From assembly GCA_009778325.1 (NCBI GenBank), contig WRJZ01000046.1, positions 1-64,000 of the forward strand: a stretch of 64,000 nucleotides of DNA, written 5' to 3'. Below are positions 37,804 to 55,720 of the stretch, piece by piece. Position 1 is the first letter of the stretch, and every line of letters starts with the position of its first letter. The position numbers and the translations under genes were made by a program. The notes below the pieces were generated by a model. It was not told the origin of the DNA. It did no database searches and saw only the letters and a program-made list of their open reading frames with translations. Source of the stretch: Candidatus Endomicrobium neocapritermitis (lineage in GTDB: Bacteria; Elusimicrobiota; Endomicrobiia; Endomicrobiales; Endomicrobiaceae).

Positions 37804-37810
37804 TAAACTT

Positions 37811-38509
37811 ATGGCTATTAAAAATTTAACTACCGTATTAGATCAATTTGTTTTAGTAGATTTAAGAGAGTATTTTAACAATGATGCATTTTCGCATGAT
37901 TATCTGAAATGTGATGGAAATTTTGATTCAGGCGGCGCAACTTATCCCGCAGAAGAACTACCAAGATCTAATTCAATTATATGCAATAATGGAATACCAT
38001 TTTTCTTTCCTTCTAAAAACGACGGTTTCCTAAATAATATGGCTCTAAATGGACAAACTATTTGCATCCCAAACGATATATATAAATGTATACATATTTT
38101 AGGAGCTGTTGAAGGAAGCGGTGGCGAAGTGTATGAGGAAGAAGTAACAATTTCTTTTGAAAACGGCACATATAAAACGGTAATTTTAAAGTTAAGTAAC
38201 TGGCTGTTACCTGCAAAGTATAACGAAATCCCAGCTTTTTATTGCAGCCACTTGCATTATCCGGATATGGGACAAATTCCTAATGCCAACACTAAAATCC
38301 AAAATATAAAAACATATATCGATGACAGAAACATCAGTTATCAAACGCAATACGATAAACAATCCGATATTGAAAATATTAACAAAAATATTTGGCGTCC
38401 GAGAATCTGGTTGCAAAAAACAACATTTAAATTTAAACAAGAAATAGTCGCTCTAACGTTTATGGAAAACATAAATTTCCATATATTTTCTATGACTCTT
38501 GAAAAATAA
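37811..38509 (+). CDS. Beta-sandwich protein A (glycosidase-accessory-type domain, cytoplasmic)
   Basis: A 232-residue protein consisting of one domain: VDLREYFNNDAFS, CDGNFDSGGATYPAEELP (residues ~35-52), 'NGIPFFFPS', 'GQTICIPNDIYKCIHILGAV', 'LSNWL', and the last strand NFHIFSMTL. This pattern is known to me as an accessory module of secreted glycosidases ('NNDG...DGDFDG.G..Y.AE.LP...HVFA'). Here it stands alone with no signal peptide. A second copy is at 53787-54512 in the opposite operon. It is 7 bases after the BtrH-like gene. The function is unknown; sugar or product binding is a possibility. Confidence 0.65.
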   Translation: MAIKNLTTVLDQFVLVDLREYFNNDAFSHDYLKCDGNFDSGGATYPAEELPRSNSIICNNGIPFFFPSKNDGFLNNMALNGQTICIPNDIYKCIHILGAVEGSGGEVYEEEVTISFENGTYKTVILKLSNWLLPAKYNEIPAFYCSHLHYPDMGQIPNANTKIQNIKTYIDDRNISYQTQYDKQSDIENINKNIWRPRIWLQKTTFKFKQEIVALTFMENINFHIFSMTLEK

Positions 38510-39979: not shown

Positions 39980-40229
39980 GGATATCAATAATGAGTTGAA
40001 AAAAATAATAGTAAAAAATTCAAGATTAAAAACCTCAGTGGCAAATATATCAGATAACTCAGATCTAATTAACGATTTTGGATATGATTCCGTATCGCTT
40101 ATAGAACTTATAGTAAACATAGAGCAAACTTTTAATATAACGTTTAATTACGATATGCTTTCCATAGATATCATTTCCAACTTCAAAAATTTATGCGATT
40201 GTATAAAAACAACATTAAAAAATTCGTAG
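39969..40229 (+). CDS. Free-standing acyl carrier protein
   Basis: An 86-residue acidic helical protein with GYDSVSLIEL; Ser41 is the expected phosphopantetheine attachment site. It is coupled to the ligase upstream and sits 9 bases before the ketoreductase. In this setting it is more likely a dedicated carrier of the cluster than the fatty-acid ACP. No ketosynthase and no phosphopantetheinyl transferase are in the window. Confidence 0.88.
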   Translation: MLNKDINNELKKIIVKNSRLKTSVANISDNSDLINDFGYDSVSLIELIVNIEQTFNITFNYDMLSIDIISNFKNLCDCIKTTLKNS

Positions 40230-40238
40230 GAGTTCGTT

Positions 40239-40964
40239 ATGAATATTTCTGTTAAAGGAAAAACAATAGTAATCACAGGAGCAAGCAGAGGAATAGGAAA
40301 ATTTTTGGCTTATAAGTTTGCGAAAGAGCAAGCAAATGTCATAGTAAATTTCAAAAATTCAACAGATGCCGCAAATAATTTTATAAAAGAATTGAACTCA
40401 TTTAATAAAAATTGCATAGCAATACAGGCAGACGTTTCCGATCAAACCGATGTTAAAAAACTTAGAGATAAAGTTATCAAACGATTCGGCAGCATAGACA
40501 CTCTAATTAATAATGCCGGAGTATCAACAGCCAATCCAATCCCCATCATGAAAATAGAGGAATGGGAAGAAGTTATAGATACGAATTTAAAAAGCGTTTT
40601 TTTAACAAGTCGTATATTTGGTATTGAGATGATAAAAAAGCAAAGAGGTAAAATTATAAATATAAGTTCTTTACTTGGGCAAACAGGCAAAGAAAGCCTT
40701 TCTAACTATTCCGCTTCTAAAGCCGGAGTTATAGGTTTTACAAAATCAATGGCTAAAGAAATGGCAAAATTCAATATATGCGTAAATGCAATATGTCCCG
40801 GATTTATTGCGACAGATTTAAACAAATGCACTAAAGAAATGAAATCAAGTAAAGAAAATATTCAAAAAATGGAAGAACTTGCAAATTTTATTATCTATTT
40901 GTCTTCTGACTATTGCAACCATATAAATGGACAAATATTTAACGTAGATTCAAGAATAACATGA
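40239..40964 (+). CDS. Short-chain dehydrogenase/3-oxoacyl-ACP reductase-like
   Basis: A 241-residue SDR enzyme close to FabG. The NAD(P)-binding motif TGASRGIG (~12-19), NNAG (~90), and the catalytic Ser143-Tyr157-Lys161 set (ISS, then YSASK) are intact. FabG is usually a tetramer reducing beta-ketoacyl-ACP; here it should reduce (or oxidise) a group on the ACP-bound intermediate. A GGAG site precedes it. It is the last gene of the first operon; the next 130 bases hold promoter P2. Confidence 0.88.
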   Translation: MNISVKGKTIVITGASRGIGKFLAYKFAKEQANVIVNFKNSTDAANNFIKELNSFNKNCIAIQADVSDQTDVKKLRDKVIKRFGSIDTLINNAGVSTANPIPIMKIEEWEEVIDTNLKSVFLTSRIFGIEMIKKQRGKIINISSLLGQTGKESLSNYSASKAGVIGFTKSMAKEMAKFNICVNAICPGFIATDLNKCTKEMKSSKENIQKMEELANFIIYLSSDYCNHINGQIFNVDSRIT

Positions 40965-40992: not shown

Positions 40993-41030
40993 TTGATTAT
41001 TAGTCCTATTTTGTATATATTATTAGTCAT
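40993..41030 (+). promoter_or_regulatory. Cluster promoter P2 with paired TWAGTC half-sites
   Basis: -35 TTGATT (40993-40998), 17-base spacer, -10 TATATT (41016-41021). Half-sites TTAGTCCTAT (from 41000) and TTAGTCATAT (from 41023) are 23 bases apart, as in P1. It drives the operon beginning with the B12-type radical SAM gene. Confidence 0.75.
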
Positions 41031-41106
41031 ATAATGTATTTTTGTAATTGAATGCTTATTAGCTTTTTTTGATTTTTATTACTTTAATTTAATAAGGATG
41101 TGTATC

Positions 41107-42405
41107 ATGTCAGACATTTTAATAGTATGGCCAGATGAACAATATGTGATGAAAACCCATACAAAGATTCCAAAAAGATGGGCATATTTAATTGAAATAG
41201 TTTCTTATCTAGAAAAATTCACGCAATATTCTTATGATGTTGTAGACTGCTTGGATCCAAAGTTTAGCATAGGCGAAGTTATGGGATTAGTAGCAAAAAA
41301 TAAATATAAGTTAGTTATTTGTGTTAGTAGAATTGAGAATATAGTTTCAGTTTCATTTCTCTCAGATAAAATAAAAAAGATTTTGCCAAATACCAATATC
41401 CTATTATATGGTGACATATGCGCATATGCCCCCAATTATTTCAAAAATAATCTTAATATTGATGCCATTGTCACTTGCGGAGATTGGGAGATATCAATAT
41501 CTGAATATGCAGATTATATTTTTGGCAAAAAACAGCTGGATGAAGTTACAGGGATAACTTATAAACAATCCAGCATCTGGCATTCACATAAAAAAGGCAA
41601 TTACGTTTCTGACTGGGAACTTCCAAATACGCAAAGCAAATATTTATTTGACTTAAATACTTATAATACTATAACAAATAATGAAATAACATTATCTGTT
41701 GGCAGAGGCTGTCCATTTGATTGTAAATTCTGCACGGCAGTTATTACGTTTGGATTAAAAGACAGAAGAAAAAAACCTGAAGAAATCGTTGCGTATATGA
41801 AAGAAAACAGCAAGAAATTCAAATCTTTCAAACTTTTTTCCCCTACATTAACCTATAACACGGAATGGGTTAAAACTTTTTGTTCTATGTTGATAAAAGA
41901 AAATTTAAATATTCCATGGTGCGGAACAACAAGAATAGACACACTAAATGACGATGAAATGAAAAAGCTTATTGTAAAAAGCGGATGTTATAAGCTTGCT
42001 ATAGGCTTTGAAACATTAGATTTGGACTCCTCTCATGTCTTAAGCAAGCACAAAGAGGCTAATTTTTTAGAAAAAGCTGAATCCACGGTTAAGTTTTTTA
42101 CTTCAAACAAGGTAGAAATTAATTCTCTTATGATGCTTGGCATAAAAGGGCAAACAAGAGAAAATATTTGTTTATCATTTTCAAAACTTCAAGAATGGGG
42201 AGCAAACATAAGAGCTTCGGCATACTCTCCTAGAGAATACATAAGAGAATGGGATGCCGACTCAACAAAAAACTTAAGTTTTGATGAGATCATGGCTTTC
42301 GATAAAATGACATATTTAAATAATGAAATACCGGGTGTATCTTATTCACAATTTCTTGACCTTGTCTACAACACAGAAAATTATAAAAAAATACTAAATT
42401 ACTAA
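41107..42405 (+). CDS. B12-binding-type radical SAM enzyme
   Basis: A 432-residue enzyme. The N-terminal ~140 residues have the Rossmann-like layout of a cobalamin-binding domain (ILIVWPDEQ, then LLYGDICAY) but the usual DxHxxG box is not obvious, so B12 binding is uncertain. The radical SAM core has Cys202, Cys206 and Cys209 in GCPFDCKFC. Such proteins are often methyltransferases or ring-forming enzymes. I use the ATG at 41107 because AAGGA is correctly spaced from it; the ATG at 41098 would touch that site. First gene of the second cluster operon. Confidence 0.8.
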   Translation: MSDILIVWPDEQYVMKTHTKIPKRWAYLIEIVSYLEKFTQYSYDVVDCLDPKFSIGEVMGLVAKNKYKLVICVSRIENIVSVSFLSDKIKKILPNTNILLYGDICAYAPNYFKNNLNIDAIVTCGDWEISISEYADYIFGKKQLDEVTGITYKQSSIWHSHKKGNYVSDWELPNTQSKYLFDLNTYNTITNNEITLSVGRGCPFDCKFCTAVITFGLKDRRKKPEEIVAYMKENSKKFKSFKLFSPTLTYNTEWVKTFCSMLIKENLNIPWCGTTRIDTLNDDEMKKLIVKSGCYKLAIGFETLDLDSSHVLSKHKEANFLEKAESTVKFFTSNKVEINSLMMLGIKGQTRENICLSFSKLQEWGANIRASAYSPREYIREWDADSTKNLSFDEIMAFDKMTYLNNEIPGVSYSQFLDLVYNTENYKKILNY

Positions 42406-42419
42406 GTTATTGAACCCAA

Positions 42420-43025
42420 ATGAAACATATTTTTTTTGATATAGGCAATGTATTAATTAAATTTAAACTCATGTCCTTTCTGAAAGCTTTTAATAATTCA
42501 GAGCTTGATGAAAGTTTTTTAAATTGCCTTGATATGGCCTTTTTAGGGGAAGCACCAGAAGACAATATTATTATGTCCATGAACAAATTGGCAGGAAAGG
42601 ACATATTTGCCTTTTATGAAGAGACTAAATTCAAGAACTCTTGGATTCAAATAAATAATGAACTATTTGAAATAATACGCAATTATTCCGATAAATTTAA
42701 ATATGGGATTATATCTGACTTATGGTGTGTTCCCTATAAGATAATAACCGCAGAGTACCCATCTTTTTTTTCTCATTTTCCACAAAATAACATTTTTATT
42801 TCTTATAAAACAGGGTTTTCAAAAAGAGAACATGGCGCACAAGTTTTTGAAAACGTATTAAATACTTTAGATATTGCTCCAGGAAATATATTATATATTG
42901 ATGATGACTTTGAAAATGTAAAAAATGCCCAATTGGTTAATATGAACGCTATATGTTATAATATTGATGACAAAGCATCTAATAAACAATTATTACAAAA
43001 AATAGCTTTTTTTTATAACAGTTAA
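42420..43025 (+). CDS. HAD-family phosphatase
   Basis: A 201-residue haloacid-dehalogenase-type hydrolase, subfamily IA. The nucleophile Asp7 is in FFDIGNVL, a variant with Gly at the usual second Asp as in YihX-type sugar phosphatases. Motif II is in ISDLW, the Lys in SYKTGFSKRE, and motif IV in LYIDDDFENV. It probably removes phosphate from a cluster intermediate. It follows the radical SAM gene by 14 bases. Confidence 0.85.
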   Translation: MKHIFFDIGNVLIKFKLMSFLKAFNNSELDESFLNCLDMAFLGEAPEDNIIMSMNKLAGKDIFAFYEETKFKNSWIQINNELFEIIRNYSDKFKYGIISDLWCVPYKIITAEYPSFFSHFPQNNIFISYKTGFSKREHGAQVFENVLNTLDIAPGNILYIDDDFENVKNAQLVNMNAICYNIDDKASNKQLLQKIAFFYNS

Positions 43026-43075: not shown

Positions 43076-44776
43076 ATGAAACATTTAATCACTAGCGCTC
43101 TACCATATATCAATGGAATTAAGCATCTAGGAAATCTTGTCGGCTCTATGCTTCCTGCAGATGTTTATGCGCGTTATTTAAGGTCTCGCGATAATGAGGT
43201 TTTGTTCATATGCGCAACAGATGAGCACGGCGCTGCAACAGAAATAGCAGCTGCTAAAGCCAACATTCCCGTTGAGGAATTTTGTCGAATTCAACATGAA
43301 CTTCAAAAGAACGTTGGAGAACGTTTTTGGCTATCATTTGATTATTTTGGTAGAAGTTCAAGCGAAAACAACACACTGTTAACTCAATATATCGCAAAAA
43401 AACTTGAAGAAAACGGCTACATTGCAGAACGCACAATAAAACAATTTTATTCCAATACCGATAAAATGTTTCTGCCGGACAGATATGTGGAAGGAACTTG
43501 CCCGCATTGCGGATATTTGAATGCTAGAGGAGACCAATGCGAAAACTGCACCCGTGTTCTTGATCCTGAAGAACTTATCAATCCCCGCTCAGCAATATCT
43601 TCCAGTACAGATATTGAACTCAAAGAAACAAAACATTTATTTTTATTGCAATCGAAACTTGCAGATCAATTGGAAACATGGCTGCACAAACAAGACTCAT
43701 GGCCCAAATTAGTGCGTTCAATTGCAGACAAATGGCTTAAAGAAGGCTTGCTGGACAGAGCAATAACAAGAGATCTTAAATGGGGAGTACCCATAAATAA
43801 ACCTGGTTTTGAAAACAAAGTTTTCTACGTGTGGTTTGACGCACCGATAGCCTATATTTCCACAACAAAGGATTGGGCAGAACACAATGGACAAGATTGG
43901 CATCAATGGTGGGACTCCAAGGAACAAAAACAAGGGAATGTAAGATATACTCAGTTTATGGCAAAAGATAATATTCCTTTTCATACAATCACATTTCCGT
44001 CTACAATAATAGGGTCAGGCGAAGAATTTTTACTTCCTGATTATATAAAAGGCGTAAATTGGCTTAACTATTACGGCGGCAAATTTTCAACAAGCCAAAA
44101 ACGCGGAATATTTATGGATCAAGCAATAAATTTATATCCTTCAGATTACTGGCGCTATTATTTGATGAGCAACATACCTGAAACCGATGATGTAAGCTTT
44201 TCATGGGAATTATTCGCTTCTTGTGTAAACAAAGATTTATGCGGAGTTTTAGGAAACTTTTTTAACCGTTCATTTAAAATGTTATCTCAATATTTTGGTA
44301 CTGTTATTCCTGAAGGAGGAACTGAATCGGAACATGAAGAAAAATTAGTGCATGGCTTATGTGATTTTAAAAAAGAATATGAACACCATTTAGATAACTT
44401 GGAATTTAGAAAAGCTGCAATTGCATTGCGCAATATATGGAAGCTGGCAAATGAATATTGTGACGCAAGGGCACCGTGGAAAGCGTCCAAGGAAGGCCGT
44501 ATGGAAGACGTTGCAATTTGTATGCGTTACCTTGTTAATATGCAAAGAATTATCAGCATATTAAGCGCCCCATTTATACCGGAATTCGCGAAAATAACAG
44601 CAGACAACTTAAGTTTATTAGAAAATGAAAGAGCATGGACTACAGATGATATCTCTGTAGAATTAAAAAGTCTTGTCCCTGGAAGAGAAATAAAAGATCC
44701 AGGGATACTGCTTTTTAACCGCATTCTGCCCGAAGATGTAGAAAAGTACAAACAAAAATTTGGTTCCCAAGATTAA
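43076..44776 (+). CDS. metG: Methionyl-tRNA synthetase inside the biosynthetic operon
   Basis: A 566-residue class I synthetase that charges tRNA-Met. Catalytic HLGN (17-20) and a zinc knuckle (CPHC...CENC, ~141-157) are present. The second ATP motif reads KFSTS (336-340) in place of KMSKS, a known variant class. The anticodon-binding helical domain is present; the C-terminal tRNA-binding (EMAP-like) domain is absent. The gene sits between the HAD phosphatase and an aminotransferase fusion with the ribosome start of the next gene only 5 bases after its stop. Whether it is the cell's only MetRS cannot be told. Self-resistance or supply of Met-tRNA to the pathway are possible. Confidence 0.9.
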   Translation: MKHLITSALPYINGIKHLGNLVGSMLPADVYARYLRSRDNEVLFICATDEHGAATEIAAAKANIPVEEFCRIQHELQKNVGERFWLSFDYFGRSSSENNTLLTQYIAKKLEENGYIAERTIKQFYSNTDKMFLPDRYVEGTCPHCGYLNARGDQCENCTRVLDPEELINPRSAISSSTDIELKETKHLFLLQSKLADQLETWLHKQDSWPKLVRSIADKWLKEGLLDRAITRDLKWGVPINKPGFENKVFYVWFDAPIAYISTTKDWAEHNGQDWHQWWDSKEQKQGNVRYTQFMAKDNIPFHTITFPSTIIGSGEEFLLPDYIKGVNWLNYYGGKFSTSQKRGIFMDQAINLYPSDYWRYYLMSNIPETDDVSFSWELFASCVNKDLCGVLGNFFNRSFKMLSQYFGTVIPEGGTESEHEEKLVHGLCDFKKEYEHHLDNLEFRKAAIALRNIWKLANEYCDARAPWKASKEGRMEDVAICMRYLVNMQRIISILSAPFIPEFAKITADNLSLLENERAWTTDDISVELKSLVPGREIKDPGILLFNRILPEDVEKYKQKFGSQD

Positions 44777-44780
44777 ACTT

Positions 44781-46592
44781 ATGCAAAAGACAGAAAAACT
44801 TATTTTGGATTTAAAGGAAAGGGTAATTAAGGCTTTTGAAACAAAAGACCCTTATCTTGTATTGTACGGTTCCGCAGTACATGGAAAAATTACCAGTGAC
44901 TTTGACATATGTTTGTTTTTGCACACATATTCAAAAGAAGACGTTCAATTGCTGAAAAAAATTATTGTTGATTTTCATAAAGACAACAGTTTAAAGCTTG
45001 AATATGAAGTGCCTTACGAAAATAAAATCATTTATTCTTTTAAAGATATACTGAATGTCATAGATTTTTCCCCTTTTGATATAGTTGGAGATAACATTGT
45101 TATAAAAAAAATAGAAAAATCACAAGATTTCTTAAAATCTCTACATATTAAACTTAGATTGCTTTTCTTCGTTTTAACCTCAGATTCTTTGCTTATTCTA
45201 GGGAACAATGATATCTTTAATATGTATAAATCTTTGGCATTTAAAACTCTTGTAAAAACAATTTTCGCATATACTTATAATTTTCCTATAACGCAAGAAA
45301 CTTTTTTACAGTATCTGCTTAAAGATCCTTATACGTCTAGAAGAGCCGAAATGTATATCGGATATAAAAACCGACTTCCGCTAATTAAATATTTAAAATC
45401 GTCCATCAAAACGACATTTGTTGAATTATATAATGAAAAACATATGCTTAAATTACGCAATAACGCATATAAATTTACAGAAGACAGTTTAGAAGACTTT
45501 AAGTTTAATATGTATAATAAACCATCGAATACAAATATTAGAAAAAACTTGCCTTCTTCATATAAAAAATTGCAAACTTTTGATTTTGCAGAAAACGCCA
45601 ACCCGCTAGGGCCGTCAAGCATAATGAGTGACAGCATAAAGTTTTTTTCAAAATATGCAAATATTTATCCTGATTACAAAAACATTGAAATCAACAGACA
45701 TTTATCTGATTTTATAATGTCACCTAATAAAAACACTGTAGTATGTAATGGCTCTATGGAAGCTATTTTTGCTATTCCGCAATTATTAAAAACCAAGAAA
45801 GCCGGCGTAATCGTACCAACTTTCTGGGCGTTCGAATTTATAATTAATAAACTAAATATACCGTTAAAAAAAAGCTTTTTGAAAATCGATAACAACCTAA
45901 AATATAATATTCAAGATATTGATGAATTAGCTAAAGAATGCGATTTAATATATATATGTAATCCTAATAATCCTACCTCTTCATTCATACATCCCCAAAA
46001 ACTGATGAAAATAATAAAAAAATATAAAGACTGTCATTTTATGATTGACGAGTCACACATTCTATTAAAAAACAATCACATGAAGTTAAGCTTATTAAAT
46101 CATATTAAAAATTTCAGCAATGTAAAGAATGTTACGCTTATTTACTGCTTGTCAAAGATGTTTTCTGTCGCAGGGTGCCGAATAGGAGCTATGGTATCAA
46201 ATAAAAATACAGTCAAGCTTTTTAAAGACTGGCAAATACCGTATTCATTAAATACATTAGCTCAAGCTTTTTTTCCTTTGGCGCTAAAAGACAGAAATTT
46301 TGTTAATTCAACAAGAACAGAATTACATGATTTACGTAAATCTTTAATAAAAATGCTACAAACTATTAAAGAATTAAGAGTTATTCCAAGTAATACAAAT
46401 TTCATATTATGTGAAATAAAAAATGGATCCTCTGCCGTTAATTTGATTTCTAATTTGGAAAAAGAAAAATTTTATATTCGTGAATTAACTACACATTACA
46501 AAGATTTTCCTGGTGAATGGATAAGAATATCCGTAAATAATACTTATCTGAATACAAAATTAGTAGAGGCTATCAAATGCCACTTAAAATAG
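44781..46592 (+). CDS. Nucleotidyltransferase-PLP aminotransferase fusion
   Basis: A 603-residue two-domain protein. The N-terminal ~100 residues have the nucleotidyltransferase signature LYGSAVHGK and DFD (Ser31, Asp40, Asp42); a helical linker follows. From ~260 comes a fold-type I aminotransferase of HisC/CobD type: ENANPLGPS, NPNNPTS, DESH and the PLP Lys459 in LSKMFSVAGCRIG, ending RISV. CobD-type members decarboxylate O-phosphothreonine and HisC transaminates histidinol phosphate. The fusion suggests that an amine or amino-acid phosphate is made and then linked to a nucleotide. The ATG at 44781 is used; an upstream TTG is unlikely. Confidence 0.8.
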   Translation: MQKTEKLILDLKERVIKAFETKDPYLVLYGSAVHGKITSDFDICLFLHTYSKEDVQLLKKIIVDFHKDNSLKLEYEVPYENKIIYSFKDILNVIDFSPFDIVGDNIVIKKIEKSQDFLKSLHIKLRLLFFVLTSDSLLILGNNDIFNMYKSLAFKTLVKTIFAYTYNFPITQETFLQYLLKDPYTSRRAEMYIGYKNRLPLIKYLKSSIKTTFVELYNEKHMLKLRNNAYKFTEDSLEDFKFNMYNKPSNTNIRKNLPSSYKKLQTFDFAENANPLGPSSIMSDSIKFFSKYANIYPDYKNIEINRHLSDFIMSPNKNTVVCNGSMEAIFAIPQLLKTKKAGVIVPTFWAFEFIINKLNIPLKKSFLKIDNNLKYNIQDIDELAKECDLIYICNPNNPTSSFIHPQKLMKIIKKYKDCHFMIDESHILLKNNHMKLSLLNHIKNFSNVKNVTLIYCLSKMFSVAGCRIGAMVSNKNTVKLFKDWQIPYSLNTLAQAFFPLALKDRNFVNSTRTELHDLRKSLIKMLQTIKELRVIPSNTNFILCEIKNGSSAVNLISNLEKEKFYIRELTTHYKDFPGEWIRISVNNTYLNTKLVEAIKCHLK

Positions 46593-47293
46593 AGAATCTC
46601 GCCATGTCATTTAAGGAAAAATATAATAATTCAACCTATCAAATCAATCAGAGCGCAGGAATAATTTTATTTGATGATAACTTTTGTTATCTTTTATTAA
46701 ATAAAAAAAGAAAATGGGAAAAGAAAGATGCCTTTTCGTATGAAATAAAATATTCAGCAATAGGTGGAGCGATAGAAAATAATGAAACCCCTATACAATG
46801 TTTAGCAAGAGAGATAAAAGAAGAAATAACTTCAACCATTTCTGATATAGACATCAAATCCTTTAGGATAACATATATTATAGACAAGGATTCAAATATT
46901 TTAGAAAAATCATTTCCTGATGCCATTCCTGCTCCGCTATGCATTTTTGAAAGAGAGCTTCCTTTAAGAAAAGACGTTATATTTAAAAAAAATAATTGGG
47001 AAAAATCATGTTTACAATTGTTTCTATACATTGGGTATATATCCAAGCCTTTTAGAATCAATGAAGATGAGATTCCGGCGATAATAAAAGTTCCAAAAAC
47101 AGATTTAATTAATTTTATAAATAAAAGACAATCTTTTGTTCAAAATAGCTTTTTAAATAAATTTATATTAGACATTAATGCAAATTTTGTTAATAAATAT
47201 GGTGAAATACCGGAAAAGATTATTCTTTCCCCTCAGTTTTCTTTTACAGCTTTTAAAATTTTATTTGATAATAAAAAAATATTTGCTTTCTAA
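46577..47293 (+). CDS. NUDIX hydrolase
   Basis: A 238-residue protein with a clear NUDIX box at residues ~64-85 (GAIENNETPIQCLAREIKEE fits Gx5Ex7REUxEE). The last ~100 residues are an extra helical domain of unknown type. NUDIX enzymes cleave nucleoside-diphosphate-X compounds. Its start overlaps the end of the nucleotidyltransferase-aminotransferase gene by 16 bases, so the pair may make and cut an NDP-linked intermediate (inference). Confidence 0.85.
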   Translation: MPLKIENLAMSFKEKYNNSTYQINQSAGIILFDDNFCYLLLNKKRKWEKKDAFSYEIKYSAIGGAIENNETPIQCLAREIKEEITSTISDIDIKSFRITYIIDKDSNILEKSFPDAIPAPLCIFERELPLRKDVIFKKNNWEKSCLQLFLYIGYISKPFRINEDEIPAIIKVPKTDLINFINKRQSFVQNSFLNKFILDINANFVNKYGEIPEKIILSPQFSFTAFKILFDNKKIFAF

Positions 47294-47366
47294 CCATTAG
47301 AATGTATAATAACGATATAAGCGATACTAAATCTATAATGGACATTAAAAAAAGAGGAGAAAATTT

Positions 47367-47699
47367 ATGAAAATAGGGATTATACGCTGTATGCAAACAG
47401 AAGATTATTGTCCAGGGACAGCAGATTTTAGGGCAATAAAAAACAAAACGGGTATTTTTGAAAACATTAAAGACGATATAGAAATTATTGGCATGATAAA
47501 TTGCGGAGGATGTCCAGGAAAAAAAATAACAATGCGGGCAATGAAAATGATAGAAAAAGGAGCTGATACTATAGCAATGGCAACTTGTATAAACAAAGGA
47601 TCATCCAACAATTTTGCTTGTCCATTTTCCGAGAAGATTATGAACCATTTAACTGAAAGACTTGCTAAAGATATAAAAATTTTACCGTATACACATTAA
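47367..47699 (+). CDS. CGGC-domain protein
   Basis: A 110-residue protein with Cys46-Gly-Gly-Cys49 in INCGGCPGKK, the mark of the CGGC domain family, plus Cys at ~9, ~15, 75 and 83 regions (IIRCMQTEDYCPGTAD, MATCI). It probably binds a metal or an Fe-S cluster, or acts as a redox partner; the family function is unknown. AGAGGAG precedes the ATG. It is 6 bases before the large radical SAM gene and may serve it as electron or cluster donor (inference). Confidence 0.8.
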   Translation: MKIGIIRCMQTEDYCPGTADFRAIKNKTGIFENIKDDIEIIGMINCGGCPGKKITMRAMKMIEKGADTIAMATCINKGSSNNFACPFSEKIMNHLTERLAKDIKILPYTH

Positions 47700-47705: not shown

Positions 47706-49679
47706 ATGAAAAATAAAAACATCGACGTTTGTCTTATCAACATGCCTTATGCTGAAGTCACTGAGCCCTCTCTAGCTCTTGGGCTTTTAAAGGTTGCGCT
47801 TTCAGATGAAAACATATCTACAAAAATATTATATTCAAATATCAGTTTTGCTGAAAAAATAGGCCTAAAAAATTATCAACTTATTGCGTATGTAGGCAAA
47901 GGTGACGATATGCTAATATGGGATTGGACTTTTTCTCAAGTTGCCTTTCCCAACATGAAAAGAAATGACTTGTCATATCTGCGAAAAATTTATAGTTCCA
48001 TAAAATTTTATGAACATTATCCAGGAGAATTAAAAACTTTTATAAGAAGTTGTTTGGAAGTAAGAAAAGCCACTAAAAACTTTATAGAAGAAACCGCTAA
48101 AGCAGCTATTGCAACAGGCGCTAAAATAATTGCCTGCACTTCTACATTGAGACAACATGTTTCTTCGATTGCATTGTTAAGAAAAGTCAAAGAACTTGAC
48201 CCGTCAAAAATAACCATGATAGGTGGTGCGAATTGTTCAGCAGATATGGGAAAAGAAACTCACCGAAGTTTTGCTTGGATAGATTTTCTTGTATCTGGAG
48301 AAGGAGAAGAAATAATTGGAAAATTATGTAAAGATATTCTTGCTTACGGAACGAATCTTGACATAGAAAACCTTCCTTTTGGCGTATTTGGGCCTAAGCA
48401 TAGAGAACAAAACCATTATGATAAAATTGGAAGCAAATATTACGCAACAGTTAAAAATATTGATAACTCTCCTATTCCTGATTTTACAGATTATTTCGAC
48501 GCGTTGAATATATCGTCAATAAAGGAATCTGTTGTTCCTGGCATTATACTTTTAACATCAAAAGGATGTTGGTGGGGACAAAAATATCAATGCTCTTTCT
48601 GTGGATTAAACGGCGCCGATATCTGTTACAGAGTAAAGTCTCCTGAACGGGCATTAAAAGAAATAAAAACGTTAGAAATCCAGTACAAAACAAACCGACT
48701 TTTAATGGCAGATAATATCCTTGATATGGGATATTTTAACAGTCTGCTTCCAGACTTGGCATCTGACGGAAAAAAAAGATGTATTTTTTATGAAACTAAA
48801 TCAAATCTTAGCAAACAACAAGTAGAAATGTTGAAAAAATCCGGAGTTGAATGGATAGAACCTGGCATTGAAAGCCTCCACTCTGATCCCCTCAAGTTTA
48901 TGAATAAAGGCGTTAAAGCATGGCAAAACATACAATTATTAAAATGGGCCAGACAATACGGAGTGCGCACTTATTGGAATATCATGTGGAATTTCCCTGG
49001 AGAAGATGATAAATGGTATTTAGAGATGTCCAAATTTGTTCCCATGCTTGAACACCTTCATCCGCCAGCTAGACTTGCTGAATTGTTATATCATAGATAT
49101 AGTGATTACTATAACAACCCAGAAAAATATGACATCACACTAATACCCCACCCTGCATTACAATATATTTACCCTTTATCGCAGGAACAGTTAAAAAGTC
49201 TTACGTATACATTTTTTGTTGAAAAAAATAGTATTTTTGAAAAAAAAGAAAATTTAGCTAATGAAAAAGTTGGGGTATCTGCATTAAGAAAAGCTATTAG
49301 AGATTGGCAATCAGCATTTTGGATTCAAACAAAACCAATATTAAATATGGTAGATAACGGCAATTCAATAGATATTATTGATACTAGAAAATCTTCTTGT
49401 AAAAAGAATTTTTCTATCAAAGGCTTATCTCGCTATATTTATTTATTATGTGATAAAGCGCCTTTAAAGGAATCTCTATCTTCATTACTAAAAGAACAAT
49501 TTCATTTTGAAGCTAAACCAAAAGATGTTAACGAATGCATTGATATGCTTAAAGAAAACAATCTCATCATTGAAATTGATGAACGAATAATATCTTTGGC
49601 TGTACAAGGAGAAGCCATGGAATTACCTACTTGGGACGAAACTCCATTTGGTATAGTAAAAGGCATTTCTCATGTCTGA
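47706..49679 (+). CDS. B12-radical SAM protein of the RiPP-maturation type (rSAM_ocin_1-like)
   Basis: A 657-residue enzyme. The N-terminal ~230 residues are a cobalamin-binding-like domain (INMPYAEVTEPSLALGLLK start). The radical SAM motif is CX7CX2C: Cys288 in GCWWG, Cys296 and Cys299 in CSFCGLNG. Then come DNILDM, FYETKSNL, EPGIESL, MNKGVKAWQNIQLLKW and WNIMWNFPGE. These blocks match the family I know as radical SAM ribosomal-peptide maturation protein 1 (TIGR03975). The C-terminus is winged-helix-like. Members are linked with bacteriocin-type precursors, yet none is seen here. It ends the second operon. Confidence 0.85.
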   Translation: MKNKNIDVCLINMPYAEVTEPSLALGLLKVALSDENISTKILYSNISFAEKIGLKNYQLIAYVGKGDDMLIWDWTFSQVAFPNMKRNDLSYLRKIYSSIKFYEHYPGELKTFIRSCLEVRKATKNFIEETAKAAIATGAKIIACTSTLRQHVSSIALLRKVKELDPSKITMIGGANCSADMGKETHRSFAWIDFLVSGEGEEIIGKLCKDILAYGTNLDIENLPFGVFGPKHREQNHYDKIGSKYYATVKNIDNSPIPDFTDYFDALNISSIKESVVPGIILLTSKGCWWGQKYQCSFCGLNGADICYRVKSPERALKEIKTLEIQYKTNRLLMADNILDMGYFNSLLPDLASDGKKRCIFYETKSNLSKQQVEMLKKSGVEWIEPGIESLHSDPLKFMNKGVKAWQNIQLLKWARQYGVRTYWNIMWNFPGEDDKWYLEMSKFVPMLEHLHPPARLAELLYHRYSDYYNNPEKYDITLIPHPALQYIYPLSQEQLKSLTYTFFVEKNSIFEKKENLANEKVGVSALRKAIRDWQSAFWIQTKPILNMVDNGNSIDIIDTRKSSCKKNFSIKGLSRYIYLLCDKAPLKESLSSLLKEQFHFEAKPKDVNECIDMLKENNLIIEIDERIISLAVQGEAMELPTWDETPFGIVKGISHV

Positions 49680-49753: not shown

Positions 49754-51286
49754 TCAACATTTATACATTCCCACATTTTCTAAATGATCCCCTACTTTTT
49801 TTATGTGTTTTATCATTTCTAGTACATCAGATTTCTTTAATAGGTGATTTCCACTCATATATCGCATAGGGTATAAAATATTTATATTTTTGTTAAATAT
49901 TTCCCCTAAGTCATAAAATGGAAATGTATGCAGATAATATTTATTATTTTTAAATAAATATTCTTGTATTTTTTTGTTAATAGCATTAACTTTTTCAACC
50001 TCTTTAGCTGAAATATCTTTGTTATTATTGATTTCATTTTTAATTTTTGCAGACACATACATAAACATCACTGAATTTATATCGGTATTTTTATTCAAAA
50101 CAATAAAGTTATCTCTCTCTTGTAATTTTTTACAAAGAAATTTAGCCAAATCATAACGCTTGTCAACAATTTCTCCAATTTTATTCTTCCCAAAATATTT
50201 TATAGAAGCCCACAATTTCAAACTATCAAAAGACTTACTTCCTATCATTGGGGTAATCTGCCCAAAAGCAAAATCTTCTTTCATAATAAGATCTGAATTA
50301 CTAGCTATTAATTTAAAATCTTTAGGGTTTTTAAAAAGTAATGAACTTAACACATACGGCATAAATAATACTTTATGAGGGTCCAACGTAATACTGTCAG
50401 CCCTGCTAATTCCATGTATTTTATATTTCAGCTTATCACTGAAAGCAAGCTGAAATCCGTGACATGCATCCACATGGAACCATAAATTTTCTTTTTGTGC
50501 TATATCACTTAAAGCTTCAATATTGTCTACTGACATCGCCCTGCTATCTCCAGCATAGCAAACTAAAGATATTATTTTATAGTCACATCTATAATCTCGT
50601 ATTTTGCGTTTTAACTTTACCAAATCGATTTTATATTCATCCGTTATATCAGCCTCAATAATATTTTTTTCTCCTAAGCCTATCCATGACAATCCACATC
50701 TTATACTATAATGAGAAATATATTTAGGCAGAATTACTTTTACTTTGGAAGTATCGAAAGTAATTCCATTTTCTCTGACCATAGGGAAAGCTTTATTTCT
50801 TGCAGCCATCATAGCAATGGTGTTAGATATCGTTCCTCCGAGAGTTACAATTCCGCCAATATCAAAAATATTTTCAGGGTCATAATTGACTTCATATCCT
50901 AAAATTTCTCTAAGCCAGTTTATAATTGACATTTCAACAAAACTTGCAACAGGAGAACAGTGTTCGGCATTTATCATATTTTGGTTAAGGAGTGGAACTA
51001 ACAACGCTGCTGCTATTGAAGAAACAGAATTGCCTGAATCAGGAAAAGCACAAAATTTTTTTGACGCAAAGTTTGTAGAAAATTTAACAATTTTATTATT
51101 TAATTCATTGTACAGTTTTTTTAAAGACATAGAAGTATTGGGTATGGGTTCTAATAATAAACCCTTGAAATATTTGGGATGCATTACTTTTGTAATGGAA
51201 TCCATGGTTTTAAAATCCACTCCCATATCTACTATTTCATGCAGATATTTTTTTATTTTTTTACCATTTGTATTATTAATAAACAT
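49754..51286 (-). CDS. PLP-dependent group II decarboxylase
   Basis: A 510-residue decarboxylase of the aromatic-amino-acid/glutamate/tyrosine type. The PLP-binding Lys305 is in DPHK, and HVDACHGFQLAFS gives the PLP-stacking His/Asp. It would turn an amino acid into its amine. Its start overlaps the stop of the PaaK-like ligase by 11 bases, so translation of the two is coupled. It is the last gene of the minus operon, converging with the second plus operon; the 74-base gap shows no hairpin. The substrate is unknown. Confidence 0.85.
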   Translation of the reverse strand: MFINNTNGKKIKKYLHEIVDMGVDFKTMDSITKVMHPKYFKGLLLEPIPNTSMSLKKLYNELNNKIVKFSTNFASKKFCAFPDSGNSVSSIAAALLVPLLNQNMINAEHCSPVASFVEMSIINWLREILGYEVNYDPENIFDIGGIVTLGGTISNTIAMMAARNKAFPMVRENGITFDTSKVKVILPKYISHYSIRCGLSWIGLGEKNIIEADITDEYKIDLVKLKRKIRDYRCDYKIISLVCYAGDSRAMSVDNIEALSDIAQKENLWFHVDACHGFQLAFSDKLKYKIHGISRADSITLDPHKVLFMPYVLSSLLFKNPKDFKLIASNSDLIMKEDFAFGQITPMIGSKSFDSLKLWASIKYFGKNKIGEIVDKRYDLAKFLCKKLQERDNFIVLNKNTDINSVMFMYVSAKIKNEINNNKDISAKEVEKVNAINKKIQEYLFKNNKYYLHTFPFYDLGEIFNKNINILYPMRYMSGNHLLKKSDVLEMIKHIKKVGDHLENVGMYKC

Positions 51287-52625
51287 TTTCTTCCTTAATT
51301 TTATCCTTTATCTTGCAATAAAAAAATTTAAATTTACCGCTTATCGGATCATTTGGAATTTGTTCTTTAGAAATATTAATTTTAATCCCTATTTCGTATT
51401 CTAAAACTCTTTCTAAATAATTTTTTAAAAATACTTTCACTTCTTCCATAATAACATAATTAGGAATTTCAGAACTTCTAAACTTAAATTGAAATTCATC
51501 AACTTTTTCTTGAATAATTTGATATTGGCTAAACTCAAATATATTCTTTAATTGTAAGGCAAGCATTGCATCGGTAGTTATCCAATGCTCATAATAATTA
51601 TTCTTACCTACTACCAAATCATTAAGTCTGTACTGCTTCAAATTTATAACTGGAGTTGTATTATCACAATCACAAGAATTTTCTTCCCAGTCGGCACAAT
51701 CGCCAATCTTATATCTAAGCAATGGCATTTGTTTATAGCACATTGTTGATATAACAACCTCTTTAACATTCTTATCAGTTTCAAGAAGCTCAACAAAAAC
51801 GTTCTTTGTAAAAACATGCATTTTACCTTTTGAACATGTTGAAGCAATAAATTGAACTTCATTTGTAGCATAAATATTAGTCGGTATTATATTGAAAGCT
51901 TCTTTAATTATCTGCGATTGCCAATCAAACATATATTCGCTTTGGCATTCTATATATCTTATATCCAAAATATTCTTTTTGGCATTTTTTATAATATAGT
52001 CTGAAAAATAAGATAAAATTGAAGGAGCAGCTATTATCCATTTTACTTTTTCCTTTAACATAAATTTAAATAATTTTTCAAAAACCATATCGTTATATTT
52101 GTATAAGTAATATATATTTCCATATTGATTAATCTGTTCAAAATCATTTTTACAACCAATACTTTCTATTCTAGTGATTGGATTAACAGGCCATATCCAA
52201 ATATATGGCATATTAAGAATATCGTCATTTTTTTTCTTTCTATGCATGTTTAACAATAAAAATGCATTATTGCTATCTCTATGATGTTTAGCTATAGTTA
52301 ATGGTTCCCCCGTGGATCCACTTGACATAACTAAATCGATGTTGTGTTTTTTAAAATATGCTCTCGGAAATTTTTTTTTAAGCGATTCTTCTAAATTAAA
52401 ACCTGCCGCCAAAATGTCCTCATTAATAAAATCAGAGATATTCTTCCTATAATCTTGTTTAGTAGTAATTGGAATTTTTTTAAAATCTTCATAATTTTTA
52501 ATATTTGCTATATCAATATTGCATTTTCTATATAATGATCTATAATAAGGTACATTAAGAGATGCTGCTAGCATTTGTTTAATATTTATTATGTTTTTAT
52601 TAAATTCTTTTTCTTCTATTTTCAT
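51276..52625 (-). CDS. PaaK-like adenylate-forming enzyme
   Basis: A 449-residue protein with the phenylacetate-CoA-ligase layout: the ATP loop SSGSTGEP at ~99-106, IECQSEYMF, YATNEVQF, and LLRYKIGD near 310. It activates an acid as acyl-AMP for CoA, carrier or amine transfer. The ATG at 52625 is used; the upstream TTG at 52643 lacks a ribosome site. It is coupled with the decarboxylase. A gap of 116 bases to the radical SAM gene contains TATAAT and may hold an extra promoter. Confidence 0.82.
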   Translation of the reverse strand: MKIEEKEFNKNIINIKQMLAASLNVPYYRSLYRKCNIDIANIKNYEDFKKIPITTKQDYRKNISDFINEDILAAGFNLEESLKKKFPRAYFKKHNIDLVMSSGSTGEPLTIAKHHRDSNNAFLLLNMHRKKKNDDILNMPYIWIWPVNPITRIESIGCKNDFEQINQYGNIYYLYKYNDMVFEKLFKFMLKEKVKWIIAAPSILSYFSDYIIKNAKKNILDIRYIECQSEYMFDWQSQIIKEAFNIIPTNIYATNEVQFIASTCSKGKMHVFTKNVFVELLETDKNVKEVVISTMCYKQMPLLRYKIGDCADWEENSCDCDNTTPVINLKQYRLNDLVVGKNNYYEHWITTDAMLALQLKNIFEFSQYQIIQEKVDEFQFKFRSSEIPNYVIMEEVKVFLKNYLERVLEYEIGIKINISKEQIPNDPISGKFKFFYCKIKDKIKEENVY

Positions 52626-52741
52626 GATAATACCAACTAACAAAAAATTATAGTCTGACAGTACTTCAACAAAATTCTACAAGCATTTCCATCTAACAAC
52701 AATACAAAAAGTATAAGCTTTTCAAAAGATTTTATTTAACT

Positions 52742-53782
52742 TTAATACTTACTCCTGTGTGCACACCTATAACATGTTGCTTTATACTCTTTATCCAAAC
52801 CATATAAAGAATAAATTTCCCTATTGTAAAAATTTTCATACTTACTAGTTTCAATACTTCCTATAACAGTGTCGGGAAAATCAGGACATATCACAATATT
52901 TCCGTTTGAATCAATTGCCAGCGATTCTTCAATTTCGGAACAGGGTTTGTTTATAGCTTCACAAGTTAAAGGTATTAGACTTTCCAGCAAAGTATCCGGT
53001 TTTTCATAGTATATCTCAAGATTTTTACTATCAGGTATGAAATTTTCATTTGACCATCTGACAAAAAAACCGTGCTTATTTACTATACTTTCACAAATCT
53101 GCCCTAGCTTATCATAATCAAATATATTCTTATAATCACCGCTGTATCCCTTCCATGATTCAAGTTTTTTACCGCATTTTTCAAAAACTTCCATAGCAAA
53201 TTCATTGCCCTTTTTTTTGTCCACAAGTATCAAAAAATTCATTGTTATGGAATGAACATCCCAAGATTTAATTTCATCACAAAACTCTTCTATGTCCAAG
53301 TAATTGTCCTTAAGTATCGTAAAATTAATTACCACGTTTTTTCGTTGATATTTTCTAGTTCCTTCTATATATTTGAAAAGTGATTCTTTAACTTTTTTAA
53401 AAAGCCCGCCTGTTCTTCTGATTGAATCATGGACATCGCCGAGCCCGTCTATTGAAACAATCATGGATTCTATGGGGGCTTCAATTAAAAAATCCAGATA
53501 CTTGTCTAATAAAAAAGCATTTGTATTTATTGAAACCTTTCCTTTTTTTGAAATAAAAAATTTTACTATCTCTTCAAAATCAGGATGAAGTAGCGGTTCG
53601 CCACCCCAAAGATAAACCTGCATATTTTCAGGAATGTTTTGAAAAAATTTTTTTAAAAGTTCCGTTTTTATGTATATTCCTCCGGCAGCACCTTCATTCC
53701 TCACCCGCTGTCCGCACATTACGCAATTTAAATTACATCTGTCGGTCAGTTTGATTACAATTTTTTTTATTTCTCTTTGCAT
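52742..53782 (-). CDS. SPASM-type radical SAM enzyme
   Basis: A 346-residue enzyme with Cys16, Cys20 and Cys23 in CNLNCVMC, the WGGEPLLHP block (~60-68) and SIDGLGDVHDSIRR. The C-terminus has the SPASM pattern (LAIDSNGNIVICPDF...IGSIE...CYRCAHR) for auxiliary Fe-S clusters. SPASM enzymes often modify peptides, but some act on sugars or small molecules. It is 4 bases after beta-sandwich protein B, which makes this protein a candidate partner or substrate (inference). Confidence 0.87.
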   Translation of the reverse strand: MQREIKKIVIKLTDRCNLNCVMCGQRVRNEGAAGGIYIKTELLKKFFQNIPENMQVYLWGGEPLLHPDFEEIVKFFISKKGKVSINTNAFLLDKYLDFLIEAPIESMIVSIDGLGDVHDSIRRTGGLFKKVKESLFKYIEGTRKYQRKNVVINFTILKDNYLDIEEFCDEIKSWDVHSITMNFLILVDKKKGNEFAMEVFEKCGKKLESWKGYSGDYKNIFDYDKLGQICESIVNKHGFFVRWSNENFIPDSKNLEIYYEKPDTLLESLIPLTCEAINKPCSEIEESLAIDSNGNIVICPDFPDTVIGSIETSKYENFYNREIYSLYGLDKEYKATCYRCAHRSKY

Positions 53783-53786
53783 AACT

Positions 53787-54512
53787 TTACACTGCCTCGT
53801 TTATTTTAAAAGTCATTGCAAAAATATGAAAGTTAAGATTTTCATTTTTAAATTTTATCTTATTTACTGCTTGTGAGTAAGGGAGCACAATCTCCTGAAA
53901 CCATATCTTAGGCTTCCAGTCACCTGAAGGCAGCTTGTCAAAAACAGCCTTGTCAAAAACTTCAGAAAAATATTCAACAGGATCCGATGCCGTATCATAT
54001 TCTTGCAGTTCGTTTTTTGTAAAAAGGTTTCTGTTAACTTTTTGCATATAATCAGGAATGTGAAAATGACTGCAGCAAAAAGCTGCTTTTTCATCAAACA
54101 CTGATGTTAAAAGCCAATTGCTTAACCCTGCATATGCAATCGTGATTATTTTATTTCCGTTCATTATGGCGATTTCTTCTTTTAAGTTATCTCCGGCTTG
54201 TCCTTCCGATGCCCCCAATATATATAATTTGTCATATTTTTGTTCATCAAGCAGCATTTCCTGCTTTCTTATAATCATATTGTTCTTGTTACCGTTTTCC
54301 TTAGAAGGAAATAAAAAAGGAATTCCGTCAACAGATATAAAGGAGTTAGACTGTGGAAGCTCTTCCGCAGGAAATGTCGCACCGGATCCATCAAATGCTC
54401 CGTCACATTTTAATGAGTCATACGAAATGCCGTCATTATTAAAATAGTTCCAGAGATCAAGCAGTAAAAACTGTATCCCCTTATTGAAAACTTTATACCT
54501 TTTAGAAGACAT
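53787..54512 (-). CDS. Beta-sandwich protein B, paralog of protein A
   Basis: A 241-residue single-domain protein clearly homologous along its full length to the one at 37811-38509: LLDLWNYFNNDGISYDS, CDGAFDGSGATFPAEELP, VDGIPFLFPS, LYILGAS, LSNWLL, CSHFHIPDYM, and the C-terminal NFHIFAMTF. It lacks a signal peptide. It keeps the family consensus (FNNDGIS, DGSGAT) better than protein A (FNNDAFS, DSGGAT). It lies between the DegT aminotransferase and the SPASM radical SAM genes with gaps of 14 and 4 bases. Confidence 0.65.
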   Translation of the reverse strand: MSSKRYKVFNKGIQFLLLDLWNYFNNDGISYDSLKCDGAFDGSGATFPAEELPQSNSFISVDGIPFLFPSKENGNKNNMIIRKQEMLLDEQKYDKLYILGASEGQAGDNLKEEIAIMNGNKIITIAYAGLSNWLLTSVFDEKAAFCCSHFHIPDYMQKVNRNLFTKNELQEYDTASDPVEYFSEVFDKAVFDKLPSGDWKPKIWFQEIVLPYSQAVNKIKFKNENLNFHIFAMTFKINEAV

Positions 54513-54526: not shown

Positions 54527-55720
54527 TTATTTTGAAAGCTCTTTAAAATTATTTATCGCTATGATTATTTCATTAATCTGTTTTTCATCCCTTAACAAAA
54601 AAAACTGAGGTATCCATACAAATTCTTCGGCTAATTTCTCGGCATTTGTACAATCGTCGCTTTCAGGATAATGAAACGGATTTGCTTTGTACATTCTGCT
54701 CCATAAAGGATCTTCTTTTAAAAATACCTTATCCATGAAATATGGATATTTATTCAGCGGGATATCGTCATATCCGCCCCAGCATGGGATTTCATGCAAT
54801 CTGAGACATTCAATAAATTCACTTTTTGTTCTATTGTTGAATTTATCCTTATGATATCTGAACATAAAAAGATGGCAGCCGTGTTTTGTTAAGCCTTTGG
54901 GAATCTCCATCAAAGTTAAACCTTCCATTTTTGATAGTATATTCGCAAGGTAATAATAATTTTTTTCCCTTAATGCATTTTGTTTTTCATAACCGTCTAC
55001 CTGAGCTTCAAGTACTGCCGCTTGAAATTCGCTTATTCTGTAGTTTCCACCCAATAAAACATCATTATGAAGAATTCCGAACCAATGATTATAATCAAGA
55101 TATTTACTTATTTTATATGCCAATTCTTTGTTATTTGTAACAACGGCTCCGCCTTCCCCTGAAGTTATATTTTTGCTATTTTGAAAACTGAAACATCCTA
55201 TATCGCCGAAATTACCTACATATTTTCCTTTATATTCCGTGCCTATTGCCTGAGCACAATCTTCAACTACAGCAATTTTTTCACTCTTTGCCCAATTGCA
55301 CAACTCTTCTATATTGCAACACTGTCCGCCCATGTGAACTGGGATGATACACTTCACTTTTTCTCCGTATTTTTCCTTTAGCCTCTTTACTGACTCTATA
55401 TCAATACATGAAGTTTTTAAATCAACATCCGCAAAAACAGGAATTGCACCTACGTCTAAAACAGAAAAAGCCGTTGCTATAAAAGTAATACTCGGTACTA
55501 TTACATAATCCATATAGCCTATATCTAAAGCCCTTAACGCAAGCTTCAAAGCATGGCTTCCGTTAGTACACGCTAAGCAGTAAGTTACATCTAAAAAACC
55601 TTTAAATTTATCCTGAAATTTATATACAAACTCCCCTTCCCTGCTCCACCATACATTATTATCTATAACTTTAAGAAGATTTTCTTTTATAGCCTGTGAT
55701 TTTATTGGCCATTCAATCAT
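54527..55720 (-). CDS. DegT/DnrJ/EryC1 aminotransferase
   Basis: A 397-residue PLP enzyme that puts an amino group on an NDP-keto-sugar or a related ketone. The PLP Lys183 is in NSKNITSGEGGAVV; VEDCAQAIG (~159-167) and GGNYRISEFQAAV are family blocks. Such enzymes make amino sugars and C7N units in natural products. It lies before the beta-sandwich B gene and after the double glycosyltransferase, so it may make the sugar which that enzyme attaches (inference). Confidence 0.9.
   Translation of the reverse strand: MIEWPIKSQAIKENLLKVIDNNVWWSREGEFVYKFQDKFKGFLDVTYCLACTNGSHALKLALRALDIGYMDYVIVPSITFIATAFSVLDVGAIPVFADVDLKTSCIDIESVKRLKEKYGEKVKCIIPVHMGGQCCNIEELCNWAKSEKIAVVEDCAQAIGTEYKGKYVGNFGDIGCFSFQNSKNITSGEGGAVVTNNKELAYKISKYLDYNHWFGILHNDVLLGGNYRISEFQAAVLEAQVDGYEKQNALREKNYYYLANILSKMEGLTLMEIPKGLTKHGCHLFMFRYHKDKFNNRTKSEFIECLRLHEIPCWGGYDDIPLNKYPYFMDKVFLKEDPLWSRMYKANPFHYPESDDCTNAEKLAEEFVWIPQFFLLRDEKQINEIIIAINNFKELSK

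Follow-up and report, generated by a model that had tools for sequence, protein, structure and literature searches.

Members of the TIGR03975 family, which are B12-dependent radical S-adenosylmethionine (SAM) enzymes, are currently named and predicted as peptide-modifying enzymes. The CX7CX2C motif has been described for PoyB, PoyC, and the bottromycin methyltransferases (excerpts of PMC5682303), and again for PoyC (excerpts of PMC11285071). PoyC methylates an sp3 carbon by way of methylcobalamin and a 5'-deoxyadenosyl radical (excerpts of PMC5682303). TsrM, a B12 radical SAM methyltransferase of a pathway to a ribosomally synthesised and post-translationally modified peptide (RiPP), acts on tryptophan (excerpts of PMC11285071). 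AziU3/U2 is an aziridine synthase that closes the aziridine ring of azinomycin by sulfate displacement (excerpts of PMC9570651 and PMC12559475); the complex is also noted in excerpts of PMC11168924, and the original work (J Am Chem Soc 2022) is taken as cited in the excerpts of PMC9570651. Type 2 methionyl-tRNA synthetases (MetRS) respond less, or not at all, to MetRS1 inhibitors (excerpts of PMC7916415 and PMC8165550). In this study, we analysed a 64,000-nucleotide stretch of Candidatus Endomicrobium neocapritermitis (positions 1 to 64,000 of contig WRJZ01000046.1, assembly GCA_009778325.1), hereafter the window. It contains a gene cluster in which a TIGR03975-type methyltransferase gene (47706-49679) occurs together with genes for an acyl carrier protein (ACP) and for homologues of AziU3 and AziU2. 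We propose, with moderate confidence, that this RiPP-derived methyltransferase serves a carrier-protein pathway to an aziridine-like product without a ribosomal precursor and acts on a non-ribosomal intermediate.

The methyltransferase and its relatives

The open reading frame (ORF) at 47706-49679 (forward strand) starts with ATG and encodes 657 amino acids. Its product matched TIGR03975 (rSAM_ocin_1) over model positions 1-606 of 606, with 636.6 bits and an E value of 4.2e-191, the curated cut-off being 281.85 bits. The cysteine motif CWWGQKYQCSFC starts at residue 288 and reads C288-x7-C296-x2-C299. CX7CX2C is present in all 23 TIGR03975-family rows of the tree set; judged from these rows, it is typical of the family and not odd. 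An initial annotation of the window had read the protein as a TIGR03975-type enzyme with CX7CX2C at Cys288, Cys296, and Cys299 and had named a profile search as the check; that search places the protein, at full length, within the RiPP-maturation-type family, and the motif positions agree. The gene is the only one in its genome above the TIGR03975 cut-off, and the cluster's second B12-type radical SAM protein (41098-42405) falls far under it.

The nearest relatives found were enzymes of rhizobial plasmids (Sinorhizobium, Rhizobium, and Mesorhizobium), with 37-38% identity. In a maximum-likelihood tree of 23 rows, from which L046 (a match in pieces) was left out, the window enzyme and four rhizobial enzymes formed a group with support of 100/100. 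By these relationships, the methyltransferase stems from a RiPP lineage, yet it stands without a recognisable precursor. TIGR03975 matches were present in 62 plasmid records, 11 of which were opened (nine annotated and two unannotated); an annotated precursor lay near the TIGR03975 gene in seven of the nine annotated loci. On a Streptomyces globosus plasmid (L097, 4143-13695), the TIGR03975 gene belongs to a pheganomycin-type hybrid cluster with Dpg genes, a glycine amidinotransferase, and a peptide ligase.

A search of 60 genomes, the source genome included, gave matches to the methyltransferase in 34. The best foreign match scored 66 bits with partial coverage versus 1521 bits for the gene itself, and the foreign matches are, as far as their sequences tell, other B12 radical SAM proteins. 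The TIGR03975 cut-off was exceeded in seven of 340 genomes of the phylum (again including the source genome). One phylum genome has three divergent TIGR03975-like genes adjoining each other (L057, 9257-15258). A tblastn comparison of 22 cluster proteins with the stretches round ten TIGR03975 loci of the phylum returned the methyltransferase, weak SPASM and glycosyltransferase matches, and nothing else. The scan of genome contigs with the methyltransferase yielded no close relatives of the cluster, and phages gave no match to the enzyme.

Precursor search and promoter motif

The spacers listed in the initial annotation agree with the computed gaps of the cluster. A precursor hidden in these gaps was rejected after every gap ORF of at least 15 amino acids had been listed: nine lie mostly within a gap, the longest has 47 amino acids, and none is leader-like. 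The sole sense-strand ORF of the 47.3-kb gap (47302-47370, 22 amino acids) lacks a visible ribosome site and matched nothing in Pfam. The genome (2.38 Mb, listed as 100% complete with 4.37% contamination) was searched in six frames with the Nif11 (PF07862), NHLP leader (TIGR03793), and Nif11-leader (TIGR03798) models. No match exceeded the cut-offs, and a precursor of these leader families elsewhere in the genome was likewise rejected. The best sub-threshold match (E = 0.154, contig C51) was judged to be a chance match because control genomes give matches too. No peptidase domain accompanies the ABC_membrane and ABC_tran domains of the exporter (60636-62408), whose alignment to the NHLP exporter model begins at position 146 of 710; hence, the C39 part is absent. 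Two marks of a RiPP cluster are missing here, namely a precursor gene within the cluster (by gap ORFs and leader families) and a C39 leader peptidase on the exporter, although the latter is not obligatory for all RiPPs. The initial annotation had reported spacers devoid of a precursor gene and an exporter devoid of a C39 peptidase; both observations hold, and the genome-wide precursor search that it suggested extends the first to the whole genome for the three leader models.

A shared motif precedes three operons of the cluster (Table 1). The pattern TTAGTC-N17-TWAGTC matched the genome exactly at three places, each at the start of a cluster operon, versus one for the reversed control; with one mismatch, the window contained four matches versus 0.52 expected. 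A longer pattern was written from the three sites, which makes its zero expectation circular in part. The fairer test is that of the shorter pattern, but it was likewise read from the same three sites. Another candidate, AAATGGAAATTTYAAT, occurs before two operons and was dropped because it is not enriched (17 matches in the window versus 15.8 expected). The methyltransferase gene is the last of the run behind the 41000 site, and the widest gap in this run is 73 bases; through the shared motif and this run, the methyltransferase is thus linked with the U3/U2 genes and with the exporter. The confinement of the exact motif to the cluster speaks against a distant precursor gene under the identical promoter. 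A precursor under the cluster promoter elsewhere was rejected on exact matches, weaker sites being possible. The helix-turn-helix protein encoded divergently from the exporter operon likely regulates the cluster.

The cluster could instead belong to a genuine RiPP pathway, with its precursor gene at another place or of a novel type and with the other enzymes adding a non-ribosomal part as in a pheganomycin-like hybrid. We consider this possible, though unlikely. It is consistent with the precursors found in the plasmid loci, the one pheganomycin-type hybrid among them, and with the grouping of the window enzyme with Nif11-linked enzymes. Two points count against our own proposal: Nif11 precursors are annotated nearby for three of the four grouped rhizobial enzymes (the fourth record carries no annotation), which makes a peptide substrate the default for the methyltransferase lineage, and the three leader models would miss any precursor whose type has not been described. 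A RiPP pathway is, however, at odds with the lack of a Nif11 or NHLP leader above cut-off in the genome, with gap ORFs that are not leader-like, with an exact promoter motif found nowhere else in the genome, and with an exporter lacking the C39 peptidase; moreover, no rhizobial-type amino-acid epimerase appears among the 25 best families listed for the radical SAM/SPASM protein of the cluster.

AziU3/AziU2 homologues and the proposed pathway

A non-peptide substrate, which the initial annotation had mentioned as an alternative, is the option we favour, given the missing precursor and the AziU3/U2-type surroundings. The two window U2 proteins (37811-38509 and 53787-54512) share 42% identity. 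A PDB search with a profile of both returned AziU2/Azi28 at E values of 5.4e-14 and 6.6e-14, and the remaining matches were no better than E = 0.3. The AlphaFold model of the first U2 (21 sequences, pLDDT 82.7) had four PDB matches at E <= 0.001, all to AziU2 (best E = 5.7e-16, TM 0.84 by target). The second U2 has no U3 neighbour. The 36832-37803 product showed weak DUF4872/BtrH_N and DarH likeness by profile and matched a Streptomyces U3 in BLASTP at E = 1.8e-11 and 52.4 bits (small set). The top match of its model (pLDDT 76.9) was AziU3 (7wuw_C, E = 4.7e-9), followed by CtaG and CcbD; the alignment behind the model consists of U3 relatives and may favour AziU3. AziU3 was not among the hits when this protein by itself was the query of a direct PDB sequence search. 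Homologues of both subunits are present, encoded by adjacent genes and with matching folds, and the U3/U2 homology is well supported. For the window pair, ring-closing or related chemistry is probable; the same reaction as that of AziU3/U2 is not claimed.

A U2-profile scan of genome contigs located 22 other AziU2-like loci, whose record titles are all actinobacterial. In every one of them, the genes for U3 and U2 are immediate neighbours, as at 36832-38509; a LysW homologue is present in 15 of the 22, and no TIGR03975 gene was seen in any, within DNA of up to 10 kb on each side. These loci bear on the suggestion of the initial annotation that a larger protein, such as a beta-sandwich protein, is the substrate. 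Modification of a whole folded protein would have candidates encoded within the cluster; nevertheless, both beta-sandwich proteins are full-length AziU2 homologues, one of them beside the AziU3 homologue, such proteins adjoin U3 at each of the 22 other loci, where this methyltransferase was not seen within the flanks of up to 10 kb. We regard that explanation as very improbable, and the two proteins are better read, from their homology, as enzyme subunits. The interpretation in the initial annotation thus survives in its RiPP-type family, missing precursor, and missing C39 peptidase, whereas the beta-sandwich substrate is not supported.

At E <= 1e-6, the U2 profile matched four of the 340 phylum genomes, the source genome included. 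In another genus of the same family, a decayed U2 fragment (L065, G018:C124, approximately 10465-10792) shares 68% identity with the first U2 across 87 residues; it adjoins a gene 73% identical to window 34600-35769. Judged by this fragment, a second genus probably once carried the U2 gene, if not the entire cluster, and what it carried has since eroded. The other two matches are modules in proteins that read as glycosidase-like (L118, 4825-7371; L119, 1660-5019), which suggests that AziU2 may share ancestry with sugar-binding modules. The first window U2 outscored these modules with all 22 actinobacterial U2 proteins, and the second with 21 of 22. Among 25 literature entries on AziU3, AziU2, and aziridines and 25 on azinomycin, ficellomycin, and vazabitide, no title or abstract opening reports such genes outside Actinobacteria.

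The remaining points against our proposal concern the U3/U2 pair itself. In the alignments A3 (U3) and A4 (U2), each with 19 of the 22 sequences (L073, L074, and L083 were omitted as apparent near-duplicates), the residues invariant in the actinobacterial rows are not all kept. Six arginines found in 19/19 U2 rows are missing from both window U2 proteins, the first having lysine at two of these positions, and the window U3 has Cys135 where 19/19 rows carry aspartate; hence, the substrate or the reaction may differ from that of AziU3/U2. Cys14, His114, His117, Asp101, and Asp125 of the actinobacterial U3 rows are kept. No sulfotransferase was recognised among the cluster proteins in profile scans, U2-like modules also occur in the two glycosidase-like proteins, and the window U3 also resembles BtrH-like acyl/condensing enzymes (CtaG and CcbD in the fold search).

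This last resemblance raises the alternative that the homologues are not a ring-closing enzyme but a BtrH/CtaG/CcbD-like one for ACP-dependent acyl or amide formation, the beta-sandwich protein being accessory; the product would then be amide-linked, glycosylated, and decorated by radical SAM enzymes. The ranking of CtaG and CcbD after AziU3, the weak DarH, DUF4872, and BtrH_N profile matches, the ACP encoded in the cluster, and the missing U2 arginines all point that way. Nonetheless, an AziU2 homologue adjoins, and its model gave strong fold matches to AziU2 alone; the 36832-37803 product scores 52.4 bits with U3 versus 22.5 bits with DarH, and the position of the conserved aspartate is occupied by Cys135. 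We hold an acyl- or amide-forming system to be improbable and retain the carrier-protein pathway to an aziridine-like product.

In such a pathway, an AMP ligase would activate an amino-acid-derived unit, which would then be held on the ACP. The FabG-like reductase would reduce the ACP-held unit, enzymes dependent on pyridoxal phosphate (PLP) would transaminate or decarboxylate it, and radical SAM enzymes would functionalise unactivated carbons. The TIGR03975 enzyme may methylate an sp3 carbon of the ACP-held or free substrate, as PoyC does, with PoyC-like methyl transfer through methylcobalamin and a 5'-deoxyadenosyl radical. TsrM, by acting on tryptophan, offers a precedent for a RiPP-pathway B12 radical SAM methyltransferase that uses a small molecule; its tryptophan is reportedly free. 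The U3/U2-like complex would close an aziridine or a related small ring by intramolecular displacement, and the product would be glycosylated and exported while the extra MetRS shields the producer. As an observation on a neighbouring gene, the 44760-46592 fusion could supply a vicinal amino phosphate as ring-closing substrate.

Among PDB entries, the human cytosolic MetRS and 1rqg come closest to the cluster MetRS. The other MetRS of the genome (contig C27, approximately 29491-30567, in a 529-residue frame) looks type-1-like by eye, from its KMSK motif and length. At E <= 1e-60, the cluster MetRS was found in none of 40 relatives. By analogy with type 2 enzymes, it may serve in self-resistance; this role, like the substrate and the chemistry, is what we infer. 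Tentatively, and with distinctly less confidence than in the proposal above, a RiPP-type methyltransferase may have been recruited to an ACP-based aziridine-electrophile pathway with divergent AziU3/U2 outside Actinobacteria, whose product attacks MetRS or mimics its substrate, the type-2 MetRS in the methyltransferase operon conferring self-resistance.

Genome setting and comparison with known systems

The features of the cluster are listed in Table 1. The genes for the AMP-forming ligase, the ACP, and the FabG-like reductase form one group downstream of the first U2 gene. On the reverse strand, the ABC exporter without C39, the HlyD-type adaptor, and the TolC-type protein make up a type I exporter. 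In the 44760-46592 fusion, the N-terminal part has a GS...DFD motif, is nucleotidyltransferase-like by eye, and has no Pfam hit; the PLP domain is most like the CobD threonine-phosphate decarboxylase, below cut-off. The SPASM protein (52742-53782) showed weak matches to models of the cytosylglucuronate decarboxylase BlsE and of viperin, and it was the only one of five cluster proteins scanned with PADLOC to match, again to viperin models.

Table 1. Coordinates of cluster genes and promoter/operator motifs in the window.
Feature	Coordinates	Strand	Basis or remark
Motif TTAGTC-N17-TAAGTC before U3 operon	36750..36778	+	sequence pattern
AziU3 homologue (BtrH/DUF4872-like)	36832..37803	+	profile, BLASTP, fold search of model, alignment
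AziU2 homologue 1 (beta-sandwich subunit)	37811..38509	+	profile vs PDB, fold search of model
AMP-forming acyl/aminoacyl ligase	38516..39979	+	profile scans
Acyl carrier protein	39969..40229	+	profile scans
FabG-like short-chain reductase	40239..40964	+	profile scans
Motif TTAGTC-N17-TTAGTC before operon ending with methyltransferase	41000..41028	+	sequence pattern
Second B12-type radical SAM protein, HpnJ/BchE/AprD4-like	41098..42405	+	under all NCBIfam cut-offs
HAD-like hydrolase	42420..43025	+	weak, below cut-offs
Second methionyl-tRNA synthetase, type-2-like; candidate self-resistance gene	43076..44776	+	profiles, PDB search, genome search
Fusion, nucleotidyltransferase-like N-terminus and class I/II PLP domain	44760..46592	+	profile scans, eye
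NUDIX-domain protein	46577..47293	+	profile scan
CGGC-domain protein (PF08821, full length)	47367..47699	+	6 bp before methyltransferase gene
B12-dependent radical SAM C-methyltransferase, TIGR03975 type, CX7CX2C	47706..49679	+	ORF call, TIGR03975 profile, motif reading
PLP-dependent decarboxylase, group II (glutamate/aspartate/diaminobutyrate type)	49754..51286	-	profile scans
FlxY/PaaK-like AMP ligase	51276..52643	-	profile scan
Radical SAM/SPASM protein	52742..53782	-	profile scans
AziU2 homologue 2	53787..54512	-	profile vs PDB, sequence comparison
DegT-family aminotransferase	54527..55720	-	profile scans
Glycosyltransferase, GT2 domain, weak Glycos_transf_1 match towards C-terminus	55777..58335	-	profile scan
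TolC-type outer membrane efflux protein	58338..59777	-	profile scan
HlyD-type adaptor	59764..60618	-	profile scan
MsbA-like ABC exporter, no C39 peptidase	60636..62408	-	profile scans
Motif TTAGTC-N17-TAAGTC before exporter operon (exporter gene begins 62408)	62446..62474	-	sequence pattern
XRE-type helix-turn-helix regulator, divergent from exporter operon	62571..62918	+	profile scan, gap map

The cluster genes have 24-37% G+C (the MetRS gene being the highest) versus 37% for window positions 1-36000. Also on the contig are rplA, whose identity to that of genus members is 85-87%, and a gene reading like rplK; hence, the contig belongs to the genome, and contamination is unlikely. No clean empty site was found beside rplA, and the genes adjoining rplA vary among the genus genomes examined. 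Elsewhere in the window, the SPASM match of a radical SAM protein (31319-32932) unusually precedes its radical SAM domain, and a small protein gene (5061-5429) lies between tRNAs at 4942-5015 and 5474-5547. The product of the latter is a putative four-helix 23S-intervening-sequence protein, as judged from its sequence.

If a TIGR03975 member indeed acts on a carrier-bound or free small molecule, the annotation of such genes would change, and C-methylation of unactivated carbons would become usable for small-molecule work. Within the searches made here, the cluster extends the AziU3/U2 kind of enzyme beyond Actinobacteria. The narrow promoter motif marks out a complete gene set for expression, and the extra MetRS suggests a directly testable target for the product.

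The window enzyme resembles the RiPP C-methyltransferases of the TIGR03975/PoyC-PoyB type in its full-length family match far above cut-off and in its CX7CX2C motif. Unlike in those systems, neither the cluster nor the genome-wide search for the three leader families yielded a precursor, and carrier-protein and ligase genes surround the enzyme instead. The rhizobial cassettes of Nif11, radical SAM epimerase, and TIGR03975 genes hold the closest enzyme sequences found; there, the methyltransferase gene lies downstream of Nif11 precursors and the epimerase, none of which was recognised in the window. The pheganomycin-type cluster of S. globosus is similar in combining a TIGR03975 gene with the synthesis of a non-ribosomal amino acid; unlike the window cluster, it encodes a peptide ligase and a precursor of the pheganomycin family. 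In contrast to the LysW-dependent clusters of azinomycin/vazabitide type, no LysW, LysX, or transketolase was present among the window cluster proteins scanned. With AziU3/AziU2 of azinomycin-type pathways, the cluster shares adjacent U3 and U2 homologues of matching folds, at identities to the actinobacterial rows of 16-20% (U3) and 24-34% (U2); it differs by the ACP, the second U2, the non-actinobacterial host, and the missing conserved arginines and aspartate. Its likeness to the type 2 MetRS that are insensitive to MetRS1 inhibitors lies in a type-2-like enzyme encoded besides the type-1-like housekeeping one.

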